Source of the DNA: Candidatus Omnitrophota bacterium
GTDB taxonomy: Bacteria; Omnitrophota; Gorgyraeia; Zapsychrales; Zapsychraceae
Direction of reading: 5' to 3'
Assembly (NCBI GenBank): GCA_020053475.1
Contig: JAGVNC010000010.1
Span: 1 to 41,965, forward strand
DNA: 41,965 nucleotides
The notes under the pieces were generated by a model. It did not search any database, had not been told where the DNA came from, and saw only the letters and a program-made list of their open reading frames with translations. This document shows, piece by piece, positions 16,278-27,778 of this stretch. Within the stretch, counting starts at the first letter, position 1; the number at the start of each line of letters is the position of its first letter. The translations under genes were made by a program, and so were the position numbers.

Positions 16278-16282
16278 TAACC

Positions 16283-16332
16283 CCCGCCTTGCACCGTCCC
16301 TGCCGGGACGGCATGGGAGCGGGGCAGGGAGG
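16283..16332 (+). repeat. 50-bp GC-rich palindromic element, copy A (carries SD of the PilZ gene)
   Basis: cccgccttgcaccgtccctgccgggacggcatgggagcggggcagggagg; 49/50 identical to 26930-26979; internal CCGTCCC-TGCC-GGGACGG hairpin. Confidence 0.95.
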
Positions 16333-16341
16333 GTTCGGCAT

Positions 16342-17490
16342 ATGGGGAATTCCGTAAAAGACGCGCGGCTAGAAGCAAGAAAAGAAATTCGCATTAAAGA
16401 AAAGAACCGCATTGCCTGGCACATTGAAAATAGCGAAGTCAAGGGTGTCGCCAAGATCCATAACTTAAGTACAGGCGGGATGCTGATCGAAACCAATTCT
16501 AGGTTTAAACCGGATCAAAATTGTATTTTTGCCTTTGATTCTGCCTTAGAGGACAAAGACAATTTTCTTCCGTCCAGTGGCCGGCTTGTTTGGTCAAAGC
16601 CTGCCAATGAAGCTCAGGACCGTTACTTGTGCGGTGTCCAGTTCCTGAATCCTTCGTCAGAAAAAATATCAAAAATCCGTCAGCGGATTGAAAAAGGAGT
16701 CAAGCGTTTGGGTAATTTACAACGGATGAACACGTTTTTTAGTATTGTTTTCATTCTCTCGATGATCGCGATGTTGGTTGTTCTGGGTGGATTGGTCAAA
16801 GGGATTTACCGTGATACGATTTCCTCCCACCATCGATTATTAGCGGCAGGCAACCAACAAGCGTCTGTCACACGTGCGTATCGGCAACTTTATAAGGATA
16901 CCAAAGTAAAACTTGATGCGGTCACCGAAGAGTTAATTCTGACCAATAAGCTTTACAAAGAAACACAGGCCCTGTTCGCAGAGGTCAAACAAGAGTTGGA
17001 GGAAACGAAGGGAGTCCTCTTTGAAACCGCAGGGATGTTAGCTCAGGCGAAGGAAGAAAATGCTAAGTTAACAGAGAAAAACTCTCTGGAATTGGCCAAG
17101 TCGAATGATCGCATCGGGGAATTGGAAACGTTAAAGTCACAATTAACGGCAGAGATGCAATCATTAGAGGATCAAATTAAATATTATGAAGGGAATGTGA
17201 AGAATATTGATGAAGGGAAAGGCCTTGTTGCCACATTGCATGAGACCATGAAAACCGTGAAAACAAAAATGTCGGCTTTTCGTCAAGAAGCTTTTGCGGC
17301 ACGCATTACAGCGGTCAAAGAGTATAATCGCCTTAAAAAAACGTTAGGCAACAACGGTTATTTGGTGAAGAATGGAGAGGCTGTCCGCATTAACATGAAG
17401 GAATACAATGCCGTTACGGTTGATTCTGTGATCAAGGGGACCACGCCGCGAAAGTCAGGTGTGGGCAATATCGACGTAACATTTTTTTAA
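16342..17490 (+). CDS. PilZ-domain protein with TM helix and coiled coil
   Basis: RKEIR (RxxxR) and NLSTGG (N/DxSxxG) PilZ motifs; TM IVFILSMIAMLVVLGGLVKGI; heptad-rich C-terminal half. Confidence 0.8.
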   Translation: MGNSVKDARLEARKEIRIKEKNRIAWHIENSEVKGVAKIHNLSTGGMLIETNSRFKPDQNCIFAFDSALEDKDNFLPSSGRLVWSKPANEAQDRYLCGVQFLNPSSEKISKIRQRIEKGVKRLGNLQRMNTFFSIVFILSMIAMLVVLGGLVKGIYRDTISSHHRLLAAGNQQASVTRAYRQLYKDTKVKLDAVTEELILTNKLYKETQALFAEVKQELEETKGVLFETAGMLAQAKEENAKLTEKNSLELAKSNDRIGELETLKSQLTAEMQSLEDQIKYYEGNVKNIDEGKGLVATLHETMKTVKTKMSAFRQEAFAARITAVKEYNRLKKTLGNNGYLVKNGEAVRINMKEYNAVTVDSVIKGTTPRKSGVGNIDVTFF

Positions 17491-26839: not shown

Positions 26840-26929
26840 ACCACAACAAAATTAAGGTTAATCAACAATAATAGCGCAAGATTATGCTGACTAACATCAA
26901 GCTTAACAATTGCCTACTATTGAATAGCA

Positions 26930-26979
26930 CCCGCCTTGCACCGTCCCTACCGGGACGGCATGGGAGCGGGGCAGGGAGG
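26930..26979 (+). repeat. 50-bp GC-rich palindromic element, copy B (carries SD of rpsB)
   Basis: cccgccttgcaccgtccctaccgggacggcatgggagcggggcagggagg; one mismatch to copy A. Confidence 0.95.
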
Positions 26980-26983
26980 AGTG

Positions 26984-27778
26984 ATGGTGGTGGATGATTT
27001 AATCAAAAAATTGCTGGAAGCCGGGGTCCATTTTGGGCATCAAACGAAACGCTGGAACCCCAAGATGAAACGCTTTATTTTCGGCGAGAGAAGCGGGATT
27101 TACATCATTGATCTGGAAAAGAGCGTTGAGCATTTGAATAAAGCCCGTGATTTTTTACGTGACGTCGCCGCTAAGGGCGGGAAAATCCTTTTTATTGGGA
27201 CAAAAAAACAAGCTCAGCCGATCATTGAAGAAGAGGCCCAGAAATCGAATATGTTTTTTGTCAGTAATCGCTGGCCGGGCGGATTGTTAACGAATTTTCA
27301 GACCGTTAAGAAGTCCATTGGGCGGTTGAAAGCCATTGAAGAGATGCAGAGCAACGGCATTTGGGAGAATTTAAAGAAAAAAGAAACCAGTCAATTGACC
27401 AAAGAGCGAGAAAAGTTATTAAGAGATTTGGGGGGGATCCGGGAGATGCATCATGCTCCCGATGTTGTGTTTATTGTTGATCCTAAAAAAGAAGAAATTG
27501 CTGTCCGGGAATCCCGTAAATTAGGGATTCCCATCGTCGCCGTGGTTGATACCAATTGTGATCCTGATCTCATCGATTATCCTATCCCTGGCAATGACGA
27601 TGCGCTTAAGTCGATTCGTCTGCTGACGTCATTGATTGCGGAGAGCATCATTGATGGAAGAAAAGAATTTATGACCAGCGAGACAGCTCGAAAATCTTCT
27701 CAATCTCAAAAAAACGAATCAATTCAAGAAGAAACAGCTAAGCCAGTCGAAGTTACTTCAGCGGAACAATCTTCGTAA
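26984..27778 (+). CDS. rpsB: 30S ribosomal protein S2
   Basis: [65 protein letters not shown]-track start 26936 (TTG) only reads through the repeat. Confidence 0.97.

Follow-up and report, generated by a model that had tools for sequence, protein, structure and literature searches.

The window, i.e., the whole stretch of DNA analyzed (41,965 nucleotides, contig C57 of a Candidatus Omnitrophota assembly of 2.03 Mb in 109 contigs), harbors two copies of a 50-mer on the same strand, at 16283–16332 and 26930–26979. As reported in the preliminary description, they share one orientation and are identical at 49 of the 50 positions, with a single G/A mismatch in the tetraloop; lengthening the pair to 55 nt gives an identity of 95%. 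The CCGTCCC-TRCC-GGGACGG stem and the outer CCCGC/GCGGG pairing described initially are both present, and shuffled sequences are expected to contain 0 occurrences of the 18-nt stem-loop. By minimum free energy, each copy folds preferentially in a different register, the 5′ CCUUGC being paired with the 3′ GCAGGG.

In copy A (16282–16332, + strand), the 5′ arm CCCCGCC (16282–16288) and the 3′ arm GCGGGG(C) (16319–16325) are followed by AGGGAG(G) (16326–16332), and 10 nt separate the end of AGGGAG from the ATG (16342) of a PilZ-domain gene (16342–17490, + strand; Pfam PilZ, 1.1e-11). Copy B (26928–26979, + strand) comprises the 5′ arm CACCCGCC, the 3′ arm GCGGGG(C) at 26966–26972, and AGGGAG(G) at 26973–26979, the end of AGGGAG being 5 nt from the ATG (26984) of rpsB. 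The latter gene (26984–27778, + strand; Pfam Ribosomal_S2, 1.4e-97) encodes ribosomal protein S2 and is matched in 52 of the 55 genomes searched, its own genome counted; its start is taken here as ATG 26984, while the mechanical ORF list has TTG 26936. The 3′ end of the 16S rRNA from the same genome is GGATCACCTCCTTT (the usual anti-Shine–Dalgarno, anti-SD, being CCTCCTTT), hence GGAGG is a valid SD core, and the view that the 3′ end of the 50-mer is the apparent SD of the next gene stands for both copies.

The loop between the arms holds a 27-bp palindrome, CACCGTCCCTGCCGGGACGGCATGGGA at 16292–16318 (+ strand) in copy A and CACCGTCCCTACCGGGACGGCATGGGA at 26939–26965 (+ strand) in copy B, delimited by its other copies in the genome and by in silico excision. 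Without it, copy A reads CCCCGCCTTG|GCGGGGC, a sequence found intact elsewhere in the genome; the insert also makes copy A a weak match to the covariance model of the module. The phenomenon extends further than the two-copy element claimed before, and, judged by its sequence, the 50-mer is a composite of two different nested elements, an SD-bearing hairpin module and the 27-bp insert, rather than one unit. Its sharp edges result from this nesting.

The hairpin module and its coupling to AGGGAG

The outer module follows the pattern AA-GCCCCGCC-NN-GGCGGGGC-AGGGAGR, usually with 4–8 nt more before the start codon; its feet are AAG and AGGGAG. Script searches covered 97% of the genome (1.963 Mb, GC 45.5%), leaving out the tails of 17 contigs. 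Modules precede about 30 unrelated genes of the 2.03-Mb genome and are in the sense orientation every time. Two outcomes that the preliminary description had named as fatal to its proposal, i.e., only two copies genome-wide or random placement and orientation relative to starts, are contradicted for the module by this census. The genes served include those for ribosomal proteins S2 and L9, ACC carboxyltransferase, aspartate carbamoyltransferase, a phosphoglycerate-mutase-like protein, PhoH, a fatty acid desaturase, STAS, a response regulator, and ExbB/MotA. Across 31 curated modules, the gap from AGGGAG to the start has a median of 7 nt (mostly 5–7 nt), the start codons being our ORF choices save where homology fixes them. 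In L9, the profile match begins at residue 1, right after the module, so this start is sound. Module loops differ in sequence and length and most of the stem is retained; certain variants possess GCCTGCC/GGCAGGC stems or further nested palindromes (C66, C102, C34, and C24).

The hairpin and AGGGAG are coupled: a compact GC hairpin adjoins 21 of 136 AGGGAG start sites, whereas among the 1034 start sites with a different SD core it does so at 4 (Fisher p = 4.7e-17), and two of these four represent the same locus or family. The compact-hairpin filter was picked after a long-span scan of hairpin energy proved too noisy; an independent stem-only test agrees with its result. Among the CCCGCC-N2-5-GGCGGG hairpins, 17/40 carry AGGGAG, and all 17 lie in sense orientation directly 5′ of a start (background 33%). 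A dispersed repeat appears, then, to supply a translation-start signal, and we infer that AGGGAG is used as an SD. The outer element would be an SD-tagged palindrome, i.e., a GC hairpin (GCCCCGCC-NN-GGCGGGGC and its relatives) with AGGGAG at the 3′ foot, which may have spread to, or been retained only at, sites just before start codons, where AGGGAG would act as a ribosome-binding site (RBS) immediately preceded by a stable hairpin.

The main rival to this reading is that GC palindromes of several families insert widely and land beside AGGGAG sites native to the genes, a preferred or tolerated target, in which case the two would never have formed a single mobile unit. We consider it unlikely, although several observations point in its direction. 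The remaining 23/40 hairpins have no AGGGAG, hence hairpin and SD are separable, and the GCCTGCC..GGCAGGC palindromes are mostly devoid of an SD. Two loci, on C76 and C107, have common flanks and AGGGAG but different hairpins, meaning that the hairpin is exchangeable without the SD; this pair fits the rival at least as well. On the other hand, the ordinary SDs of the genome are of the AAGGAG and AGGAGG types, and a compact GC hairpin is found at 0/335 such sites.

Comparison with other genomes bears on the same question. The strict module pattern yields 14 matches here; of 385 further genomes sampled from the phylum, 2 have one match each and the remaining 383 have 0; read backwards, it gives zero matches in the phylum sample. 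The covariance model finds about two dozen strong matches in this genome and few strong full-length ones per relative. In one relative (G038), modules stand at a cold-shock-type gene and a bifunctional-nuclease-type gene, the orthologues of which here lack the hairpin. In the two pairs, the hairpin-less orthologues show AAGGAGG (the SD used by the cold-shock-type gene here) or no clear SD, not AGGGAG, which argues against a hairpin landing beside a native SD. Both readable pairs, the only ones compared, differ in module presence, indicating that modules were gained or lost. We infer that the modules spread by mobility and not by repeated local evolution.

Repeated local evolution would be expected if the module were a non-mobile functional leader, regulatory or mRNA-stabilizing (e.g., the target of an RNA-binding protein), arising repeatedly and kept by selection. 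The constant position and orientation before starts, housekeeping genes included, together with a loop of variable sequence and length on a mostly kept stem, would suit such a leader. Still, we find it improbable: the genes served lack a common pathway, the module is lineage-restricted, and its primary sequence is near-identical. The covariation of the stem does not exceed that of shuffles, so a covariation-supported stem was dropped. The idea of a protective hairpin at a fixed promoter distance was rejected, as the position of the −10 element is inconsistent; several modules sit 0–50 nt past an upstream stop codon. A known structured RNA leader was likewise rejected, since the Rfam 15 covariance models scoring over the gathering threshold revealed three tRNAs only within the window. 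The hairpin exposing or sequestering the SD was rejected because the predicted SD accessibility does not differ among the real modules, their hairpin-deleted and shuffled versions, and other genes; the means of 0.33 in the four nested copies vs. 0.49 in simple modules come from too few copies to interpret.

As a side observation, a leader of ~66 nt, GTAC..TCCCATTTTYATCTGGGATAAA-hairpin-AGGGAGAAATGGGATG, is common to three unrelated genes, on C66 near 40648 (L215), C76 near 3296 (L007), and C107 near 11477. In this leader, ATCCCATTT has two potential alternative pairing partners, ATCTGGGAT and the start region AAATGGGAT, resembling a translational switch.

The 27-bp palindrome and its parent sequences

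The inner element, CACCGTCCCTRCCGGGACGGCAYGGGR, occurs in 10 copies in the genome, as does its core TGCACCGTCCCTRCCGGGACGGCAYGGG, and the aligned copies are invariant across ~27 nt only. Its feet are G and S, and a G precedes the insert in 10/10 copies. Four copies lie in SD modules, five in AT-rich fold-back repeats, and one in an ORF; three copies, two on C57 and one on C23, carry the complete SD tail. Accordingly, the portable hairpin with an RBS envisaged at the outset corresponds to the outer module and not to the 27-mer, 6/10 copies of which (those in the AT-rich repeats and the ORF) supply no SD.

Excision of the 27 bp restores the parents. The three SD-tailed copies then read CCCCGCCTTG|GCGGGGC, one of them differing at a single point of the stem, and the C76 copy reads GCCTGCCTG|CCGGCAGGC. 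The five AT-rich fold-back copies become TTTTG|GATTTT or TTTTG|GATTTA, and the C108 copy regains a clean reading frame. The rejoined parents, e.g., TAAAGCCTGCCTGCCGGCAGGCAGGGAG, are found intact elsewhere as matches of 24–28 nt at five sites and 16–17 nt at three, the null of 60 random joins having a mean of 12 and a maximum of 16; for C23, which has the point difference, and C108, which lies in unique coding DNA, the rejoined match is at the background level. No target duplication of at least 2 bp is seen at the ten junctions, and the parent rejoins directly. The ORF on C108 encodes a GltD/NfnL-like oxidoreductase, in which the insert represents nine in-frame codons (PVPSRQGRC) matching a gap of roughly equal length against 4ylf, 5vj7, and 5jca. 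The 27-bp palindrome would insert after G and choose other repeats in most cases, the region close to the apex of the SD hairpin among them. Its tolerance would be explained by a position upstream of the SD or by the reading frame being kept (27 nt being 9 codons).

Beyond this genome, a search of 54 relatives that allowed up to 2 mismatches did not find the core. The exact 27-mer has no match in 85,488 species genomes, a set from which this or a very near genome was possibly left out; the exact 24-mer is likewise without a match in the species genomes, and neither it nor the module matches viral contigs. The AT-rich fold-back repeats (AAACTCAAAATCC..GGATTTTGAGTTT) themselves occupy 78 places on 32 contigs, and the five carrying the 27-mer do so at the identical point of the unit.

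Likeness to known repeats

REPs are characterized by GTAG or CGTC tags and lie mostly downstream of ORFs, GTAG being able to give a TAG stop codon, and some RAYT genes are devoid of flanking REPs (PMC3733652). The present elements resemble REPs as dispersed palindromes, those of REPs being 20–40 bp, ending on one side in a short unpaired tag, and sometimes residing within genes (PMC3733652); they are also short and present in many copies (10 27-mers and about 30 modules), and the stop-supplying GTAG tag has a parallel in the SD-supplying AGGGAG. Unlike REPs, the AGGGAG tag is located at the 3′ foot and directly before starts, and neither the module nor the 27-mer has GTAG or CGTC at its foot. 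A cognate RAYT flanked by copies is also missing: the genome has three Y1_Tnp genes, including one with an IS200-like domain at 505–1137 of the window, and none of the three has a GC hairpin of either family within 700 bp. Mobilization by a RAYT, and specifically by the gene at 505–1137 as proposed earlier, was rejected on this ground. Classical REPs moved by a RAYT-like Y1 transposase of this genome, a possibility raised by the many short palindromes and the three Y1_Tnp genes, are therefore highly improbable, given also the missing tag and the location of modules at gene 5′ ends rather than downstream of ORFs (PMC3733652).

The original label of REP/MITE-like elements is apt for short dispersed palindromes and fails on the tag, the RAYT flank, and the target duplication at the 27-mer, which does not show the duplicated target site that accompanies the terminal inverted repeats of a MITE. 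The Rickettsia palindromic elements (RPEs) are located between genes as well as in frame inside conserved protein genes (PMC2229807, PMC10969869), and the one 27-mer adding nine codons to the GltD/NfnL-like gene is comparable. However, RPEs measure 105–146 bp, whereas the insert, of 27 bp, is intragenic in a single copy and resides mostly in other repeats; this separation is by length. Insertion sequences known to target REPs (PMC1525189) are alike in landing in palindromic repeats and differ in that what inserts here is a palindrome of 27 bp devoid of coding capacity. Short GC-rich or hairpin repeats that spread through a genome are also known as mitochondrial GC clusters and repetitive hairpin-forming elements, but these are organellar and are not noted for supplying an SD (PMC4478555, PMC2800124). 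Lacking the REP tag and a flanking RAYT, the elements are regarded as a variant resembling REPs, RPEs, and REP-targeting insertion sequences and not as members of these groups. No family whose tag is the RBS of the following gene was found in the open-access literature searched.

Origin and significance of the nest

The most probable explanation is that palindromic mini-elements have spread in this lineage, one family being SD-tagged and retained at starts and the second landing in palindromes or fold-backs. We regard it as rather probable that the locus represents a nest of two such dispersed elements, the outer one SD-tagged and situated at starts and the inner 27-bp one inserting into repeats. 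The stronger version, in which a mobile SD-tagged hairpin replaces the initiation region of the gene it lands before and is itself parasitized by a hairpin-preferring 27-bp palindrome, is put forward tentatively. Against spread by mobility, neither a transposition intermediate, nor a target duplication, nor an empty site in the same genus was seen for the elements; the unaltered predicted SD accessibility, the stem covariation at the level of shuffles, and the separability of hairpin and SD likewise weigh against the explanation of an SD-tagged element.

In bacteria, dispersed palindromes are known to influence how stable an mRNA is, to provide stop codons, and to add peptides in frame. If the SD-tagged modules do move, they would represent about 30 natural swaps of translation-initiation regions, S2 and L9 included, making it testable whether repeats spread by serving as RBSs, and the SD-tagged hairpin would be a translational counterpart of promoter-bearing insertion sequences. 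The 27-mer, in turn, has ten precisely defined junctions, from which one may study how so small a palindrome spreads when it has no evident transposase.

Other repeats were encountered in the same genome. A palindrome-rich dispersed repeat of ~130 bp (CCACGGGY..RCCCGTGG, GAGCTTCGCTCGACGCCCTTTGGGCG; e.g., C2:11454, C73:56, and C85:13032-13125) has about 28–31 copies, mostly at contig ends, hence it probably breaks the assembly. A CRISPR-like array at C40:39518-39860 has the repeat GTCGCGCCCCATGCGGGCGCGTGGATTGAAAC, of which six units were seen. The palindromic family GGAAGGCTTCGCCTTCCCGGGATTTAATCCCCGAAATCGCAAAGCGATTTCAGGGGAT, occupying 59 places on 35 contigs, is larger than the family studied here.
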